From IMG/VR virus record IMGVR_UViG_3300043419_000572, positions 1 to 34,405 of that record: DNA of 34,405 nucleotides; one strand, given 5' to 3'. Positions 20,595 through 34,309 of the stretch are shown piece after piece (position 1 is the stretch's first letter; each line of letters starts with the position of its first letter). The DNA is from a virus. Position numbers and translations under genes: made by a program. The notes beneath the pieces are model-generated. The model worked only from the letters and a program-made list of their open reading frames with translations. It had not been told where the DNA came from and did no database searches.

Positions 20595-20810
20595 TTAAGC
20601 GGCGGCGATGGCTGCCAGCGTATCCACGCGGCGCCAGGTCGAACCGTTGCTGAATGCCATCACGGGGCTGCCAGCAGCGCCGTTGGACACGTAAATCATT
20701 TGGCCAGCGGGTGATGCTGACGGCACGGTGGCCACGGTGTAAGCCTGGAATTCGACCAGGACAACTGCGGGATCAGCGTATGCGACGCCAACGGCTTGGT
20801 TATTGGACAT
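20595..20810 (-). CDS. Small virion-type protein with fibre-tip-like motif
   Basis: 71 residues. Residues 25-65 (AYTVATVPSASPAGQMIYVS then NGSTWRRVDT) match a short beta motif found at the ends of many phage fibre and capsid-associated proteins, usually TLPSAxxAGxxIYVSD...VLAFSDGxxWRRV. A good ribosome binding site (GAAAGGAA) precedes the ATG. It lies upstream of the terminases rather than beside fibre genes, so it may be a capsid or tail surface protein encoded apart from the rest. Confidence 0.65.
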   Translation of the reverse strand: MSNNQAVGVAYADPAVVLVEFQAYTVATVPSASPAGQMIYVSNGAAGSPVMAFSNGSTWRRVDTLAAIAAA

Positions 20811-20856
20811 GACAGTTCCTTTCAGGGGTTAAAAATTGTCGGTTTGATTTTTGCAC

Positions 20857-21117
20857 TTAATCTTCGACCACGCAAGCGATGTCGGCTTCCTGGATGATCT
20901 GGTAATCCTGGCCTTCAAAACGTTGTACGGGCCAATCCAGGTATGTCCCGTTGCCGTATTTGATTTTGTCGCCCACCTTAATTTCATGCACTTGGGGGCC
21001 GATGGCCACAATTTCGCCTTCGTTGAATTTTTCGGTGTTCTTGACGTAAATGATGTCTGACAGGTTTCTGACAAACGGCTTTACAACAACACGGTCATGC
21101 AGCGGGCGCATTTGCAT
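20857..21117 (-). CDS. GroES-like co-chaperonin
   Basis: 86 residues from the ATG at 21115-21117, which has GGAAGG nine bases upstream; an in-frame ATG two codons later is an alternative, and the frame open further upstream is not GroES-like. MRPLHDRVVVK at the start, GEIVAIGP in the middle, KVGDKIKYGNG and the end EADIACVVED align with the GroES beta-barrel. The mobile loop (residues about 15-32) carries Asp-Ile-Ile-Tyr where GroES has Ile-Val-Leu. Phage co-chaperonins such as T4 gp31 replace host GroES in folding capsid protein with host GroEL, and P22 coat needs GroEL/ES, so a capsid-folding role is the natural inference. It overlaps the upstream Cys-rich gene by 23 bp. Confidence 0.88.
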   Translation of the reverse strand: MQMRPLHDRVVVKPFVRNLSDIIYVKNTEKFNEGEIVAIGPQVHEIKVGDKIKYGNGTYLDWPVQRFEGQDYQIIQEADIACVVED

Positions 21118-21346
21118 TTTTTGGCTTCCTTCCAGGTTTCTTACGTTCGACCGGCACTTCGGCCATCTTGGTTTCGTCGGTGGTGATGTCGTACACGGGC
21201 AAAGAAACCATCTTGATGGTCTGCTCGACGTGTTCGCCGCACCAATCCATTTCGTGTTTGTTTTGGGTCGTGGGGTAGCGACGGCAGCCGCCAATCACCT
21301 GGCCAGCGACAAAGAAACGACAGGTTTTGCAACGGACGTCGTTCAT
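21095..21346 (-). CDS. Cys-rich (probable zinc-binding) small protein
   Basis: 83 residues. Cys6, Cys9, Cys21 and Cys36 (VRCKTCRFF, GGCRRYP, DWCGEH) form a four-cysteine set typical of small phage proteins with a CxxCRFF...CRRYPP...WCGEH pattern. The C-terminal tail (KKPGRKPKNAN) is basic, AT-hook-like. The ATG overlaps the previous stop (ATGA) and the tail overlaps the GroES gene by 23 bp. A metal-binding fold is inferred from the cysteines; the function is unknown. Confidence 0.75.
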   Translation of the reverse strand: MNDVRCKTCRFFVAGQVIGGCRRYPTTQNKHEMDWCGEHVEQTIKMVSLPVYDITTDETKMAEVPVERKKPGRKPKNANAPAA

Positions 21347-21522
21347 CGCACTGGCTTTCCAGCACGGACGGCAGCGTTCAGGGCTGCGGCCATGTCTTCA
21401 GCAGCGGAACGCACTTTTGCTTCGTGCATCCGCTTCATTCGATGTTCAGCGGGCGTTGCCTCGCGTCCCTTCATAGATGGCTTGGCTGATACTGCCGCTT
21501 CGGTAGGCTTTTTCAAGGGCAT
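21343..21522 (-). CDS. Small helical basic protein downstream of the zeta-like kinase
   Basis: 59 residues from the ATG at 21520-21522, chosen because AAAAGGA lies 7 bases upstream; a GTG one codon earlier is possible. The sequence is Lys/Ala/Met-rich and helical (AEHRMKRMHEAKVRSAAEDM). It overlaps the end of the kinase gene by 77 bp in another frame and its stop overlaps the start of the Cys-rich gene (ATGA). No family is recognised. The long overlap with the kinase makes it a possible partner, for example an antitoxin, but there is no direct evidence. Confidence 0.55.
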   Translation of the reverse strand: MPLKKPTEAAVSAKPSMKGREATPAEHRMKRMHEAKVRSAAEDMAAALNAAVRAGKPVR

Positions 21523-22369
21523 CACTTAATCCTTTTCTCACTTCATTGTGATCCAGGCGTGGCAACTTGTCAAGTCCGCTTACAACGTTTGCATTTCCTG
21601 GGCCGCGGCTGTTGTCAATGACCATCATGTGGAACCGGTGATCGTCGCCGTATTTGGATTGCAGCCGATCCATAACGTCACGCGAACCCATGTGGGTTTT
21701 GAAATGTTCGTCGATTGGAACGGTGCGACCGCTTCCCTTTTCGGCTTCCATGTTTCTGGCCCGCCTTAGGGCGCCGCCTTCCATGGCTTCCACGGGGTCG
21801 CGGTAGGTGTACACAATGCCGACCTTACGACCGGCTTTCAGTGCCTGGTCGATTTTCTTGTCAGCCGAATCAAACGAATTCATGTTGGTGTCGTACACCA
21901 TTTCCGCGTCGCGGATCGCTGGGCTGACTTCCCTGGCCATTTGCAAGCCGGTGCTTTTTCCCGCGCCAGTGCCGCCAGCGGTGAAAAACACGGTGTTGTC
22001 CATGCCTGGCGGGGTGGGCTGGGATAGCTTCTCGGCGTACATCTGTTTGACGAATGCCGATGACGGTTCATGCACGTCTGCCGACCTGGTGCGGTCGGCG
22101 CGGTACTCTGGCGACATTTCACGGGCGTCGTCCGTGTTCAGGATGCGGCCACCATTGGTCGATGGCAATGCCGCGTACTCTGACGCCAGGCCGGTGTAAT
22201 CGTTGGCCAGGCGCTCGAAATACGACTGTTCAATCGGGTTGGCCGATTGGGATTGGGGCAGTGTCGGCTGTGGAACAAGCGATGCCAGGGCGGCCTGGGT
22301 AGGCTGTGCGCCCTGGGCCGCCGCCGGTTGCTGCCCCGCCGCTGCCAGTTGTGACAGCGGGGTGGCCAT
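21446..22369 (-). CDS. Zeta-toxin-like P-loop kinase
   Basis: 307 residues. Residues 1-45 are a Gln/Ala/Pro-rich tail. From about residue 125, VFFTAGGTGAGKST is a Walker A motif (132-140), followed by DAEMVYDTNMNSFDSA, VGIVYTYRDPVEAMEGGAL and RRARNMEAEKGSGRTVP, then IDEHFKTH, the order and spacing of the zeta-toxin/AAA kinase family. Known zeta toxins phosphorylate UDP-N-acetylglucosamine and block peptidoglycan synthesis; whether this protein uses that substrate is unknown. Arg190, Arg202 and Arg203 are candidate phosphate-binding residues. It overlaps the upstream 72-residue gene by one base (TAATG type), and no standard epsilon antitoxin is visible. Confidence 0.75.
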   Translation of the reverse strand: MATPLSQLAAAGQQPAAAQGAQPTQAALASLVPQPTLPQSQSANPIEQSYFERLANDYTGLASEYAALPSTNGGRILNTDDAREMSPEYRADRTRSADVHEPSSAFVKQMYAEKLSQPTPPGMDNTVFFTAGGTGAGKSTGLQMAREVSPAIRDAEMVYDTNMNSFDSADKKIDQALKAGRKVGIVYTYRDPVEAMEGGALRRARNMEAEKGSGRTVPIDEHFKTHMGSRDVMDRLQSKYGDDHRFHMMVIDNSRGPGNANVVSGLDKLPRLDHNEVRKGLSDALEKAYRSGSISQAIYEGTRGNAR

Positions 22370-22587
22370 TACTTCTGGTACGACTTACGGTCGTGCGAGT
22401 AGCAAACGCCCTTGCTGCGGCCACCATCAAAATTGTGGTTCGCGCCAGTTGCGTCAGCTTTGCCCATGGCCACGCCATTTTTGATGGCCTCCATGCGCTC
22501 ACCAGACTTGTCGCTGGCAGCAGCGCCAGCGGGCGCCTTGGCGCTTGTACCGTAACCCTTGGGTTGCATTTCGGCGTTATCTTTCAT
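22369..22587 (-). CDS. Small Gly/Ala/Lys-rich protein coupled to the zeta-like kinase
   Basis: 72 residues, hydrophilic and probably disordered (PKGYGTSAKAPAGAAASDKS), ending with a conserved-looking GGRSKGVCYSHDRKSYQK segment. A ribosome binding site AAAGGGA precedes the ATG. Its stop shares a base with the kinase ATG, so the two are likely translated together. Similar small proteins ending in a CYxHDRKxYQ-like segment occur in phages, all uncharacterised. It could be a partner of the kinase or an unrelated structural protein. Confidence 0.65.
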   Translation of the reverse strand: MKDNAEMQPKGYGTSAKAPAGAAASDKSGERMEAIKNGVAMGKADATGANHNFDGGRSKGVCYSHDRKSYQK

Positions 22588-22600
22588 GGTCTTTTCCCTT

Positions 22601-22960
22601 TCAGTTTAGGAATTTCAAACGATACAACGTTTTGTCAATCAACGATGCGATTTCGTCGATGATATTCTGAAGTTCAGAATCTTGTGGCAAATCTTCCCTG
22701 GCTTCTTTGACAAACTCAGACAACGATTCCAGGTATTTCACTGGATTTTTGGCGTTGTGGAATTCTTCAGGGTACTTTTTGATTTTTTCGTATTTGCCCT
22801 GGTACGCTTCGGCAAAGTCGTCGGCCAGGTCAATGATTTCGACGTAATACTTCCCCAGCGCCTTGTGTTCCGAATACGAATCGGTTGAAAGGTGCATGAA
22901 ATGTGTCACCGTGCTGCTGTGCAGCAATGCGGCGATAAATTCGGATGCGTCGTTTTCCAT
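22601..22960 (-). CDS. DUF5856-like four-helix protein
   Basis: 119 residues from the ATG at 22958-22960. An upstream in-frame ATG at 23026 is rejected because it would place the terminator 22977-23003 inside the gene. The sequence is entirely helical: LLHSSTVTHFMHLSTDSYSE, HKALGKYYVEIIDLADDFAE, then AYQGKYEKIKKYP, and DSELQNIIDEIASLIDKTLY. The pattern THFxHLxTxSYxEHKALxxYYxxIxDLxDxFAExYQGKYE matches phage proteins I know as DUF5856, which resemble ferritin/Dps-type helical bundles with His and Glu residues. Whether it binds metal or DNA is unknown. The ATG has no clear ribosome binding site. Confidence 0.7.
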   Translation of the reverse strand: MENDASEFIAALLHSSTVTHFMHLSTDSYSEHKALGKYYVEIIDLADDFAEAYQGKYEKIKKYPEEFHNAKNPVKYLESLSEFVKEAREDLPQDSELQNIIDEIASLIDKTLYRLKFLN

Positions 22961-22976
22961 GGGGCGATGATAAATG

Positions 22977-26187: not shown

Positions 26188-26373
26188 CTATCCCTTGAAC
26201 CACTTGGGCCGCAAGGCCCGCAACTGCCACAAACGCGCCTGGGGAACCCTGTCGCCCCATTGGCTGATCGCCTGGCGCGTAATGCCCAGCAACTTGGCCA
26301 ACGCCACGGCGCTGCCCGCTTTTTCAATTGCTTGATGTGTTTCCATGGTCGCATGGTAAGCCAACTTTCGCAT
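26188..26373 (-). CDS. Cro-like helix-turn-helix repressor
   Basis: 61 residues from the ATG at 26371-26373, supported by AAGGTG 8 bases upstream; homologues would suggest the ATG at 26344-26346 (52 residues), which lacks a ribosome binding site. METHQAIEKAGSAVALAKLL, then GITRQAISQWGDRVPQARLW, is a classic lambda Cro/YdaS-type helix-turn-helix. It is the first gene of the leftward operon, next to the divergent promoters, and would be expected to bind the palindromes there. No CI-type partner with a cleavage domain is present. Confidence 0.85.
   Translation of the reverse strand: MRKLAYHATMETHQAIEKAGSAVALAKLLGITRQAISQWGDRVPQARLWQLRALRPKWFKG
26357..26368. promoter_or_regulatory. Possible third operator half-match
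   Basis: TAAGCCAACTTT resembles the reverse complement of TAAGCTGGCTTA at 27027-27038 with two mismatches. It lies 40-50 bases left of the divergent promoter and inside the longest version of the Cro-like gene. A weak operator is possible; the match could be chance. Confidence 0.3.
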
Positions 26374-27833: not shown

Positions 27834-28454
27834 ATGAAAGTTTATAAAGCAATCAACGCCGTCCAGGCTGAATTGTCCACGGTCGGCATCACTAAAGACC
27901 GTCGCAATATGCAAGGCAGCGGTTACAACTTCCGCGGCATTGATGATGTTTACAACACCATTTCGCCTTTGTTGGCAAAACATGGTTTGTGCATTTTGCC
28001 CCGCGTGTTGGCGCGTGAATGTATTGAACGCGTCAGCCAAAAAGGTGGCGCGTTGTTTTACATCACTGTTGAAGTTGAATTCGATTTTGTATCTGCTGAA
28101 GATGGCTCTAAACACACCGTCAAAACGTTTGGTGAAGCAATGGACAGCGGCGACAAAGCCACCAACAAAGCAATGTCAGCCGCTTATAAATACGCCGCAT
28201 TCCAGGCGTTCAGCATTCCAACTGAAGCGGACAACGATGCCGACGCGCACACGCATTCTGTGGCCGCTGTGCCTGACATCACCGACCACCTGGCTGCAAT
28301 TGATGCAAGCGCCAGCAGCGACGAATTGGCAGCCGTTTACAAAACAGCGTTTGAGGCTTGCCAGGGCAACCAAGCATTGCAAGCCAAAGTGATGGCAGCC
28401 AAAAAAGTTCGCGTGGCCCGTGCCAAAAAAGATTTATCAACCAAAGGAAATTGA
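27834..28454 (+). CDS. erf: Erf-family single-strand DNA annealing protein
   Basis: 206 residues. The core (YNFRGIDDVYNTISPLLAKH, then GDKATNKAMSAAYKYAAFQA and FSIPTEADNDADAH) is diagnostic of the ERF superfamily, first known from P22 Erf. The C-terminal 60 residues form a separate helical tail as in other Erf proteins. It anneals complementary single strands during recombination-dependent circularisation and concatemer formation. It is followed after one base by the exonuclease gene, its functional partner. Assignment is firm from sequence. Confidence 0.95.
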   Translation: MKVYKAINAVQAELSTVGITKDRRNMQGSGYNFRGIDDVYNTISPLLAKHGLCILPRVLARECIERVSQKGGALFYITVEVEFDFVSAEDGSKHTVKTFGEAMDSGDKATNKAMSAAYKYAAFQAFSIPTEADNDADAHTHSVAAVPDITDHLAAIDASASSDELAAVYKTAFEACQGNQALQAKVMAAKKVRVARAKKDLSTKGN

Positions 28455-30045: not shown

Positions 30046-30317
30046 ACAAAAACGAAATGGAATTGGACATGATGGTGGCCGACTTGGAACACGAAAACCG
30101 GCTGCTGCGGGCCAGGAATGAACGGCTGGAAACAGAAAAAACCGATTGGGTTTGTCCATTCTGCTACGCGACCAAATGCGAAACGCCTGGCGAATGCAAA
30201 AGCCTGGCGATCCGCAACCAGGTGCTGGAGGAAGTCGCCAAGGAATTCGACAAAATGAAAGTCCTGGGCGACACCGCGGCGTCGTTTGCGGTGTTCGTCA
30301 GGAACATGAAACGTTAA
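30042..30317 (+). CDS. Coiled-coil protein with Cys cluster, end of the rightward operon
   Basis: 91 residues. The N-terminal half is a coiled coil (MVADLEHENRLLRARNERLE) and the middle has Cys residues in WVCPFCYATKCETPGECKSL, a probable zinc site. Helices with an LEEVAKEFDKMK segment follow. Its stop codon overlaps the stop of the convergent endolysin gene by 4 bp, so the two operons meet tail to tail here with no obvious terminator between. Confidence 0.7.
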   Translation: MNKNEMELDMMVADLEHENRLLRARNERLETEKTDWVCPFCYATKCETPGECKSLAIRNQVLEEVAKEFDKMKVLGDTAASFAVFVRNMKR

Positions 30318-30751
30318 ACGAACGGCCTGGTTCCGGCCTTGTCGATAATCAGGGCTTGCTTACGCGGTGCGGTCGAATCAGTGTTGGGTACGCTGATATG
30401 TGTCCAACGGTCAAACTCGCGAATCACCTGGTCGAACCCGATGCCGCTGGCCACGATCTTTCGCACCACTTCGTCGGGCGTCATGCCTGGCACACGGAAG
30501 TCGGCAGCGCATCCAATCCGGTGCTGGCTGGTGTCTCGGCTGCCCACCGCGTCGTTCACCTTTTTTGTCCGCAGCCCCGACGAAATCATTATGGGCTTGC
30601 CGCCCAGCACAACCTTGACTTGCTCCAGGAAGTCAGCCAGGCGCGTCAGGTTGGCCAGTTCCTGGTCGTTGGGGCTGTTGTCCCACCCGTTGCGCTCGGC
30701 TGTTTCGGATGCGGTCAATTCTTCCAGCGTGAAATGTGGCGTCAGGTTCAT
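30314..30751 (-). CDS. Endolysin, peptidase M15 (D-Ala-D-Ala carboxypeptidase-like)
   Basis: 145 residues. LTPHFTLEELTASETAERNG is the typical Peptidase_M15_3 start; His77, Asp84 (SQHRIGCAADF) and His118 (WTHIS) are the zinc ligands and Glu112 is the probable catalytic residue. It cuts peptide cross-links in peptidoglycan. There is no signal sequence, so it depends on the holin encoded immediately upstream, with which it overlaps by 4 bp (ATGA). It is the last gene of the leftward unit as read around the circle. Confidence 0.92.
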   Translation of the reverse strand: MNLTPHFTLEELTASETAERNGWDNSPNDQELANLTRLADFLEQVKVVLGGKPIMISSGLRTKKVNDAVGSRDTSQHRIGCAADFRVPGMTPDEVVRKIVASGIGFDQVIREFDRWTHISVPNTDSTAPRKQALIIDKAGTRPFV

Positions 30752-31158
30752 TTTTTGCCCTTCATGTCAACGATTTTTTCCAATGTGCGGCCACCAAAGT
30801 AAAACGACATCACCAGCATTCCCCACTGGCCCAGCAGCGTGACGTATTCCTCGTTTGCGTTGTAGCCGAATGCCGACATCATGGCAAACACAAAGTAGCC
30901 CACAAAGATGGCCACCAGGGTCATGGGCCGGATGTTTTTGGACAGCCAGGAATCCGACGACATATCGGCTTTCAGGCGGTCGGTCAGGTTGTTTTGCTCG
31001 GTCTTGTACAGGTCGGTGTCGTTGGCCATCTTGGCCAGTTCGCCGTCCTGGGCCATCTTGGCCAGTTCCAGTTGCGCCTTGGCTTTGGCTTCGGGATCGG
31101 GAATCAGTTTGTCGATCAGCTTCCCACCGACATTCAACAATGCGTCAAGTGCAAACAT
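30748..31158 (-). CDS. Holin, GTA-type 3TM family
   Basis: 136 residues. The N-terminal LIDKLIPDPEAKAKAQLELA is the hallmark of the GTA_holin_3TM family. A helical linker is followed by hydrophobic helices (MTLVAIFVGYFVFAMMSAFG and VTLLGQWGMLVMSFYFGG) and a short basic tail. It forms the membrane lesion that releases the M15 endolysin. It overlaps both neighbours by 1-4 bases, as usual in lysis cassettes. Confidence 0.9.
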   Translation of the reverse strand: MFALDALLNVGGKLIDKLIPDPEAKAKAQLELAKMAQDGELAKMANDTDLYKTEQNNLTDRLKADMSSDSWLSKNIRPMTLVAIFVGYFVFAMMSAFGYNANEEYVTLLGQWGMLVMSFYFGGRTLEKIVDMKGKK

Positions 31159-31711: not shown

Positions 31712-34309
31712 TCACTTTCCTTGTCGGCTAATTTCATCAAGGGTACTTCCCGCGCCTGGCTCAAGTGCTTCCCTGGCAAATCTTTTTTCTTTGCTTGACT
31801 GAATTTTTTGCCTGACGATGGTTCCGGCTGGAATTCCAAATTTACCCAAACCAACCACGTTACCGGCTTGCTCGGCTTTATTGGCCAAGTAGCCAACCAC
31901 GCTGTTGGAATTGTTGACAAACGATCCACGGGGCTGGAATTGCGTGTACCCAGCCACGTTGCCAAGGGTACGTAATTTCAACTGGCTTTCAGGGTCAAAA
32001 ATGGCCCCAAAATTCTTTACGTCATCCAATTGTTTTACGGCCTTGTTGTAGTTGGCTTGGCTGAAGTTGCCTTCGCCATCAATGATGCCCGCTTTGTCTG
32101 ACAAGTAATTGATGGTTCCGGCTTTGATGTGCTGGTGGCCTAACGAATCACGACCCAAAGTGTCAATCATCGTGTTGATGTTTTTGTTCACGCCGTTGAT
32201 GACAAACTTGTTGAAATACTTGTCAGCGGGTACGGCATCAGTGACTGCGGCTTTATAAGCTGGGTCTTTTTTCAACGCATCAAAACGGGCTTTGGCCAAA
32301 TCACGCGCTTTGTCTGCAACGGGTTTAAGCGCCGCAGCTTCGCCTTTTAACGGCAAATTTTCCATTGCTTCGCGAATTACACCCACGGCAAATTCTCTGT
32401 TTCCATCACCAGCTCGCGCTGCTTTTCGCCCTTCGGCAGCCAGGTTGGTTCGCAATGCTTCAAATTGCTCAAACGTCATCGGCTCGCCTTCGCGAAACCT
32501 TTTCAAATCAGCAGCAATTTCCGGCGGCACAAAATTGGTTTTCAATTTTTTAGCCAACATTTCATCAGCATTGCGAACAATGGCTTGTCCATCAACGGGG
32601 AATTGCCCGCCGTTGGCGTCTTCCAGGGCTTTGTATGCTGCGCCAATTTCAATGTTGCGCGTTTCATCCAACGCTTTGTAGGCGTCAATCAACGCATCGC
32701 TGGAATCAATGGTTTTGGTTGTAAACACATCAGGCGACGTAAGTTCACGACGCTTTTGCAAGTTATCCACCAACAACTGGTTTTGTTCTTTGATTCGGTT
32801 TGCCAGCGATGGCTGGCTGCCACGCAAATTCTGCTCTTTAGATAGTTGTATTACGTCACCAGTTGCCTGACCTTTTAACAGTCGAACCGGAACATCCAAA
32901 GAATCAGCTTCTAAGTGACGCAACACCGCGGGCATATTTGCTTTGTCCAACGGCATATTGCCGTACAACTTTTGGAATTCGTCCGTGGCACTTGTCAAAG
33001 CCTGGCGCACGATGGTTGCGTCCGGCGTGGCTGCTGCGCCCGCGCTTACGCGGCCAGGGGCTGGTGGAACGGCCTGTGGCGGCACGGGAACGCTTGGGGC
33101 TGTGGGTTGGCCTGGGCCGCCCAACGTTGGCGCCCTACGCGGCACTCTGGTGGTTCCTGGCGCTATTGCCTCAACGGTCGCACCAACGCCGCGCTGAACG
33201 GCTGCGGGTGTGACGTCCTTGGTGGCTTGCAAAACCTTGCCGCCAGCTTGCTGCACGGCTTGGCCAGCCAGGCCAACTTCGCGCTGCACGGTCTTGCTGA
33301 ACGGGGCCGCGGTCAAGCCCAATTCCATGTAGTACTGCACTTCCTGTTTGGGCATACCCGTTTTTTGGGCAATCCAATCGGCGCCTTTGTCCACGTTCTC
33401 GCCAATAAACTGCATGATGCGTTGGCTGGCTTCGCCTTTGTACTCCGGCGTTTCAGTGACGCCAAAGGCTTTGCCAAACGGTTTGTCGATGGCGCTGACA
33501 ACTTTGCCCTTGGTCGCTTCGGCTTGCTCTGGTGTTTGGCCCATGGCACGGGCGCCCGCATATGTGGCCATGCCAGCCACGCCAGGAACAACGCCCGCAA
33601 CCGTGTCGGCCAGGGCAGCACTGGATCGCAAAAACGACGTGACCTTGGTGGCCACTTTGCCTTTGGGGGGCGGCTCGTTGAATGCGTCGGCCACCGCAGC
33701 GTTCACCGCGTCGGGTTTCATCAAGTCGTCAACGCTCAATTGGCCAGGGGTCGCGCTGGGGGTTGCGTCGGCTTTGCCGGTGTGGCCAAACACGGCCTTG
33801 CGGCCACTTTCCATTTGCGTGATGCCAGCGGCCAATTGCTGGCGCACCAACGGGCTGTCCAGGTCAATCGTCTGTTTGGGATCAAGCCCCGTCACGCGGG
33901 CGACATGGGCGATATATGCCTTGGTGTCGTTTTCGTTGGGCGGCGCCCAGGTCGAAATCACGCCTTCCAGCGTGTTGATGCCTTTGCGCTTGTAACCCTT
34001 TAGGTTTTTGTCCAGCGCGGCCAAGCCTTCTTCCATGCTGCCGTATTCGGCCAACTTGCCACCAGGCATCAATGCGCCTGGATTGTTCGTGCGAATTGGC
34101 GCCGGTGTTTTGGGCTGGGCCATTGTCGGTGCGGCGGCTTCTTTTGCCGTCGGGAATCTTACGTCAACCGCAACATTTCGGCCCTCGTTTGTCTGGACGT
34201 TGAATGTCGGGGTTGCTGGCGCTGGCCGTGCCGTTGGCTTGATCTTCACGCCAAGGGCATCACCCACCGCGGCATCAATTTGGGCGGGGTCGAACATTTC
34301 AGTAGCCAT
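31712..34309 (-). CDS. Gp16-like ejection protein with peptidoglycan-hydrolase domain
   Basis: 865 residues. Residues about 70-170 (IRTNNPGALMPGGKLAEYGS, MEEGLAALDKNLKGYKRKG, then WAPPNENDTKAYI) match the virion peptidoglycan-hydrolase domain common in ejection proteins of podoviruses. A Pro/Ala-rich N-terminus and a hydrophobic Gly/Ala segment near 230-260 (DTVAGVVPGVAGMATYAG) follow, then long helical stretches and a basic C-terminus. P22 gp16 is 609 residues, so this one is longer and carries its own wall-degrading domain. Its ATG overlaps the stop of the gp20-like gene across the genome junction, giving the order gp7-gp20-gp16. Confidence 0.8.
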   Translation of the reverse strand: MATEMFDPAQIDAAVGDALGVKIKPTARPAPATPTFNVQTNEGRNVAVDVRFPTAKEAAAPTMAQPKTPAPIRTNNPGALMPGGKLAEYGSMEEGLAALDKNLKGYKRKGINTLEGVISTWAPPNENDTKAYIAHVARVTGLDPKQTIDLDSPLVRQQLAAGITQMESGRKAVFGHTGKADATPSATPGQLSVDDLMKPDAVNAAVADAFNEPPPKGKVATKVTSFLRSSAALADTVAGVVPGVAGMATYAGARAMGQTPEQAEATKGKVVSAIDKPFGKAFGVTETPEYKGEASQRIMQFIGENVDKGADWIAQKTGMPKQEVQYYMELGLTAAPFSKTVQREVGLAGQAVQQAGGKVLQATKDVTPAAVQRGVGATVEAIAPGTTRVPRRAPTLGGPGQPTAPSVPVPPQAVPPAPGRVSAGAAATPDATIVRQALTSATDEFQKLYGNMPLDKANMPAVLRHLEADSLDVPVRLLKGQATGDVIQLSKEQNLRGSQPSLANRIKEQNQLLVDNLQKRRELTSPDVFTTKTIDSSDALIDAYKALDETRNIEIGAAYKALEDANGGQFPVDGQAIVRNADEMLAKKLKTNFVPPEIAADLKRFREGEPMTFEQFEALRTNLAAEGRKAARAGDGNREFAVGVIREAMENLPLKGEAAALKPVADKARDLAKARFDALKKDPAYKAAVTDAVPADKYFNKFVINGVNKNINTMIDTLGRDSLGHQHIKAGTINYLSDKAGIIDGEGNFSQANYNKAVKQLDDVKNFGAIFDPESQLKLRTLGNVAGYTQFQPRGSFVNNSNSVVGYLANKAEQAGNVVGLGKFGIPAGTIVRQKIQSSKEKRFAREALEPGAGSTLDEISRQGK

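Follow-up and report, generated by a model that had tools for sequence, protein, structure and literature searches.

The virus record IMGVR_UViG_3300043419_000572 (34,405 nucleotides; "the window" below means this whole 34.4-kb stretch) stems from a freshwater phage with P22-like packaging and head genes for terminase, portal, scaffold, coat and head closure proteins. On its minus strand, the window encodes a P-loop kinase of 307 residues (22369-21446) and, in a reading frame overlapping the 3' end of the kinase gene, a small protein of 59 residues (21343-21522), which we refer to as the partner. The kinase belongs to the same topologically rewired zeta class as gonococcal zeta1, and not to the streptococcal epsilon/zeta type. 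The link between kinase and partner is near-obligate and includes partner copies nested out of frame in large genes for polyvalent-type proteins. Conservation, selection and frame-controlled profile searches provide strong support for the partner as a genuine gene. We consider it fairly probable that the two proteins are a toxin and its own overlapping antidote, likely serving as an effector made late in infection.

Class, fold and catalytic residues of the kinase

A first-pass annotation, made from the sequence alone, had identified a zeta-like P-loop kinase. The P-loop is present, and the Pfam family Zeta_toxin (PF06414) matched the kinase with 50 bits against a cut-off of 22.3. The alignment was partial, covering only profile positions 97-177, because the order of blocks in the kinase is different. 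A conserved block with the invariant Asp80 (block A, residues 73-118, GGRILNTDDAREM..HEPSS..YAEKL, ending in EKLSQ; 22016-22153, minus strand) precedes the P-loop, as indicated by profile and structure alignments that are linear over the whole domain and by the order of elements in an AlphaFold2 model. In streptococcal zeta toxins, by contrast, the equivalent block follows the P-loop. Residue numbers refer to the full 307-residue protein; in our alignments A1 and A2 and in the AlphaFold2 model, which lack Met1, they are one lower.

The AlphaFold2 model, built from 25 relatives, had a mean predicted local distance difference test (pLDDT) score of 84.1. In a Foldseek search of the PDB, its best matches were 6eph, 6epg and 6epi, all chains of gonococcal zeta1 (E = 1e-13, template modeling score 0.69). 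Structures of streptococcal zeta and PezT (1gvn, 2p5t) ranked far behind, with a root-mean-square deviation of 8-14 Å in linear alignment. A profile of the kinase family, run against the PDB with sequence information alone, retrieved 6eph_B with an E-value of 8e-14 and covered the whole domain.

The two catalytic residues in block A, Asp80 and Arg83, are invariant in alignment A2, as are His100 and Glu101, and this group aligns with Asp56, Lys59 and His79 of zeta1. Lys138 in the Walker A motif (GGTGAGKST; 21950-21976, minus strand), Arg203 and Arg215 are likewise invariant. Asp80, Lys138 and Arg203 correspond to Asp56, Lys115 and Arg175 of zeta1, and Arg215 probably corresponds to Arg181, a pairing that is shifted by 1-2 columns in the profile hidden Markov model (HMM) alignment. 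Since the catalytic residues are retained, the kinase is likely to be an active enzyme, which does not imply a preference for UDP-N-acetylmuramic acid (UNAM).

The Gln/Ala/Pro-rich N-terminal tail (residues about 1-40; 22247-22369, minus strand), already noted in the first-pass annotation, is real, differs in length and sequence among relatives, and is predicted to be disordered (pLDDT <50). Relatives of the kinase are encoded in 312 IMG/VR stretches. Many kinase relatives form domains of large proteins, about 500 to over 4000 residues long.

Gonococcal zeta1, in which two blocks are shuffled, is a UDP-sugar C4'-kinase whose expression in Escherichia coli is toxic and causes lysis; it is silenced by a small, mostly helical partner, which winds around the toxin in an extended conformation (PMC5923241). 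The window kinase shares with this system (ng_zeta1/epsilon1; 6EPG, 6EPH, 6EPI) the swapped block before the P-loop, the fold and the equivalents of catalytic Asp56, Lys115 and Arg175. Unlike zeta1, it has no C-terminal OB domain, and its relatives occur in phage and polyvalent contexts. With streptococcal epsilon/zeta and PezAT, it has the zeta-type kinase core and PF06414 in common, whereas the block order differs and the three-helix-bundle epsilon protein is missing. AvrRxo1/ARC1, which likewise combines a kinase of zeta fold with a small inhibitor, gave a weak match in the structure search (E = 4e-4); the substrate of AvrRxo1, nicotinamide adenine dinucleotide, is different (PMC5923241).

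The partner gene and its linkage to the kinase

The partner reading frame ends at 21343 and is +1 relative to the kinase frame. It comprises 59 codons from an ATG at 21522 (77-bp overlap with the kinase gene) or 60 codons from a GTG at 21525 (80-bp overlap). A Shine-Dalgarno-like AAGGA within the kinase gene (21530-21534, minus strand) lies 4 nt ahead of the GTG and 7 nt ahead of the ATG. AlphaFold2 predicted a disordered stretch followed by a single helix (residues 24-53) with the motif ..MAAALNAAV... A short +1-frame gene with a conserved end helix (..LN[RK]..) is the hallmark of the partner across the family.

The partner overlaps the 3' end of the kinase gene in 48-49 of the 49 non-redundant kinases located at the end of their gene (terminal set), and in every locus examined it lies in frame +1 and begins before or at the end of the kinase domain. 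It accompanies the kinase in phages in which the latter has moved (L047-L049), in a different phage type (L057), in MW202577, in a proteobacterial metagenome-assembled genome (L069) and in Acidobacteria, where kinase identity is about 30%. A family HMM, run over 66,048 open reading frames (ORFs) from 281 loci, found 241 partner matches at kinase ends and only 2 elsewhere, one at a truncated kinase (L060) and one at the duplicate of an acidobacterial kinase locus (L203). A tblastn result suggesting that one subgroup was devoid of the downstream gene proved wrong; the gene was too divergent for the search and was found on inspection. A viral scan with the L065 domain gave no matches, and PADLOC and NCBIfam yielded nothing useful.

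An ATG or GTG start together with a Shine-Dalgarno-like motif was present in frame +1 in 48/49 terminal-type loci and in 24/36 loci where the kinase is embedded in a large protein, compared with 4/49 and 0/36 in frame +2; as frame +2 is seldom open there, the comparison is confounded in part.

Two further observations concern the distribution of the family. In MW202577 (L001), the one GenBank relative, a partner-like small ORF that is unannotated in the record (20711-20853) directly follows a kinase-bearing protein of 878 residues ("thymidylate kinase"). On two Sphingomonadaceae plasmids (L150, 4001-4696; L151, 4001-4606), distant kinase relatives of about 25% identity adjoin a DNA adenine methylase gene, and no recognisable partner was found at these kinases.

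The embedded set consists of 36 non-redundant kinases inside large polyvalent-type proteins, some of which also contain LPD22 (L055), ddrB-ParB (L063-L066, L155) or, as a weak match, ART-PolyVal (L155) domains; the window kinase, in contrast, is free-standing. Zeta-like kinases in polyvalent proteins and MuF fusions have been noted before (Iyer et al., 2017; PMC5512222); text searches of that article brought up neither block swapping nor a nested partner gene. At the embedded loci, a short peptide that has a matching terminal helix and soon reaches a stop is encoded in frame +1, spanning the end of the kinase domain; examples are GQALVDNLNRNV (L058), GQELVDNLNRHA (L164) and AQEFVSNLNRNV (L162).

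The N-terminal half of the partner is in part a shifted reading of kinase codons ("KSAKPST" is the +1 reading of GKISQAIYEG). Because these codons are conserved in the kinase, only the stretch beyond the domain was tested. An HMM trained solely on the helix of the phage lineage was scored against 7,200 frame-matched windows. In the +1 frame, scores were above the 95th percentile for 30 of the 36 embedded kinases and above the 99th for 23. The corresponding counts were 1 and 0 in frame +2, and 3 and 0 in frame 0. The +1 scores differed from the frame-matched controls with a Mann-Whitney p of 8e-27; as the loci are not fully independent, p-values are indicative. HMMs built from half of the embedded peptides placed 29/36 held-out cases above the 99th percentile (0/36 in frame +2) and recognised 48-49/49 terminal-type partners. 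The motif [LIM]N[RKQEAN] was present in 23/36 embedded cases and in 1.4% of length-matched controls.

Selection acts in the same frame. Over the 34 codons past the kinase stop in 21 loci of the phage lineage, the ratio of nonsynonymous to synonymous differences (pN/pS) was 0.30 in the partner frame versus 1.1 and 2.0 in the other frames. Among embedded loci, L158/L161 had a +1-frame pN/pS of 0.29 (Fisher p = 8e-5) and a main-frame value of about 2. For L160/L161, pN/pS was 0.07/0.43 in frame +1 against 0.18/0.13 in the main frame, and for L251/L254 it was 0.23/0.71 against 0.40/0.17. In these embedded loci, the partner frame is constrained and the frame of the host gene is relaxed. The informative pairs come from two groups only; the close pair L063/L153 was uninformative, and for pairs below about 70% nucleotide identity, which were saturated and misaligned, the pooled ratio was close to 1 whichever frame was used.

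A tree of 69 kinases, the rooting of which is uncertain, required three changes between the embedded and terminal states, and it placed the window clade of 25 free-standing kinases (support 96) among embedded ones. The partner has survived each change of kinase context.

Neighbouring genes in the window

The first-pass annotation had described a tightly coupled cassette of three genes, comprising an ORF of 72 residues (22587-22369, minus strand), the kinase and the partner. All three ORFs are real and lie, on the minus strand, exactly at the positions reported, with the one-base overlap (TAATG) of the upstream ORF and the kinase gene and the 77-bp overlap downstream. In phage relatives of the same lineage, both kinase neighbours are present. 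In L047-L049, the kinase gene is relocated to a position directly ahead of the small terminase gene (terS), and in L048 and L049 the 72-residue gene remains adjacent to the gene for a Cys-rich protein of 83 residues, away from the kinase. The 83-residue homologue in L049 (E = 2.5e-20) immediately follows that of the 72-residue gene. The kinase is missing from the related phage MW202674 (L149), which has homologues of the 72-residue (E = 2e-17) and 83-residue (E = 3e-19) genes next to each other with a gap of 61 bp. Because it stays where the kinase has moved or is absent, the 72-residue gene is a phage-backbone gene outside the kinase unit. The cassette is therefore reduced to two genes, and the expectation that the neighbours are conserved with the kinase in relatives was strongly confirmed for the downstream gene and had to be given up for the upstream one.

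In the window, the gene for the 83-residue protein (21095-21346, minus strand), also part of the phage backbone, overlaps the partner gene by 4 nt. It is followed by a GroES-like co-chaperonin gene that is kept in the phage lineage (20857-21117, minus strand; Pfam Cpn10, E = 3.7e-9) and then by the terminase genes. On the other side, the gene at 22601-22972 (minus strand) matches DUF5856 (E = 3.8e-24) and a PHROG labelled starvation-inducible transcriptional regulator, and has a conserved position upstream of the 72-residue gene. Further away, a P22 Cro/YdaS-like regulator gene (26188-26373, minus strand) and an ERF recombination protein gene (27834-28454, plus strand) lie on opposite strands. 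Separate genes for a Peptidase M15 protein and a holin of gene transfer agent type (30314-31158, minus strand) are a likely lysis pair. Near them, an ORF of 865 residues (31712-34309, minus strand) had zero Pfam matches; judged by its position, it could encode an ejection protein.

Possible function of the kinase and its partner

As in type II toxin-antitoxin systems, in which a toxin gene is tightly linked with the gene of a small partner, the kinase gene is paired with a small gene at its end. We favour a toxin with an overlapping antidote, because the partner is constrained, coupled to the kinase and never encountered without it, features expected of an antitoxin or immunity gene, and because zeta-type kinases make suitable toxins. 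The kinase would phosphorylate UDP-sugar precursors of the wall or of lipopolysaccharide. The partner would be translated from an internal start at the 3' end of the kinase gene, bind the kinase and keep it inactive in the producing cell, acting as an antitoxin or immunity protein, and the overlapping start may tie the syntheses of the two proteins together. The most likely use would be as a late-infection effector that acts once the virion has delivered it, a route proposed for polyvalent proteins, or at a late stage inside the producing cell. Since relatives of the kinase are fused into polyvalent-type proteins, a role as injected effector is plausible by analogy.

The first-pass annotation had raised the possibility of a toxin system with an unfamiliar antitoxin and had recognised no epsilon protein. 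Searches of both kinase neighbours with Pfam, PHROG and PADLOC likewise gave no match to epsilon families, and the toxin reading is retained, with the downstream overlapping gene as the candidate antitoxin. The predicted helix after a disordered stretch recalls the extended form of epsilon1; the window gene differs in lying downstream of the kinase gene, overlapping it in the +1 frame. A candidate antitoxin translated from within the toxin gene also recalls the Rpn genes, but RpnS is translated in the frame of RpnL as its C-terminal piece (PMC10327210), whereas the window partner uses the +1 frame and extends across the end of the domain.

Several observations weigh against a toxin with its antidote. 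Profile comparison detected no sequence similarity of the partner to gonococcal epsilon1. Among the 36 embedded partners, 12 lack the Shine-Dalgarno-like motif, and in a few, such as L062 and L065, a clear motif is missing. In addition, the contacts of zeta1 to the lactoyl group of UNAM, Lys59 and Asn75, are replaced by Arg83 and Ser96. These contacts are a feature of substrate specificity, not of the fold; the substrate of the kinase may therefore differ.

Other explanations have to be considered for the +1 frame itself and for the use of the pair. The suspicion that the small ORF is a mere shifted reading of conserved kinase codons holds for the N-terminal half of the partner. For the helix half, it was refuted by tests beyond the kinase domain with frame +2 and frame-matched controls and by the selection tests, so that we give it hardly any credence overall. 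It is also very unlikely that the helix is joined to the kinase by programmed frameshifting where the domain ends, with no separate small protein. In most loci, the +1 frame is already open ahead of the domain end, and the embedded cases devoid of a Shine-Dalgarno-like motif would fit a frameshift; against this, a start and such a motif are present in all but one of the terminal cases, and in L057 the open stretch of the +1 frame begins just 4 codons ahead of the domain end, with a GTG there and AAGGA 7 nt before it.

The linkage and the overlap would be explained equally well if the partner were an obligatory co-factor (chaperone, activator or packaging adaptor) for kinase folding or capsid entry, and a single helix with a disordered N-terminus would suit such a role. 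We regard it as unlikely, as the partner is also retained with the kinases of Acidobacteria (L071-L077), where no packaging context was seen, and as the zeta-type kinases characterised so far have an inhibitor partner. A classical addiction module of plasmid style, or a toxin-antitoxin system for superinfection exclusion by a lysogen, is about as doubtful. A zeta-type toxin with a small partner and a Cro-like repressor gene in the window would agree with it. Against it, the kinase gene is a neighbour of the packaging genes, related phages such as MW202674 lack it, and the scan, which covered part of the window genes, revealed no integrase. A somewhat stronger contender, though still an improbable one, is that the kinase merely aids lysis by halting wall synthesis before holin and endopeptidase act, with the partner as timing device. 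The position of the kinase in the terminase-side gene block, the separate holin and M15 peptidase genes and the lysis of E. coli by zeta1 (PMC5923241) are in line with this possibility, whereas relatives within polyvalent-type proteins with ddrB-ParB or ART-PolyVal domains do not suggest a role in lysis.

Returning to the toxin with its overlapping antidote, we extend the proposal to the family with slightly more belief than doubt: in phages and mobile elements, rewired zeta kinases would have a dedicated out-of-frame antitoxin gene across the end of the domain, which is retained in giant injected effectors as a hidden immunity gene. The kinase and its partner carry the gonococcal-type zeta class beyond plasmid toxin-antitoxin loci, into freshwater viruses, phage packaging regions and Acidobacteria. 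Should the partner be an antitoxin, one class of polyvalent effector domain would be toxic enough to the producer to require an antidote, which would support the view of polyvalent proteins as active weapons, and similar nested genes may hide within other effector genes.
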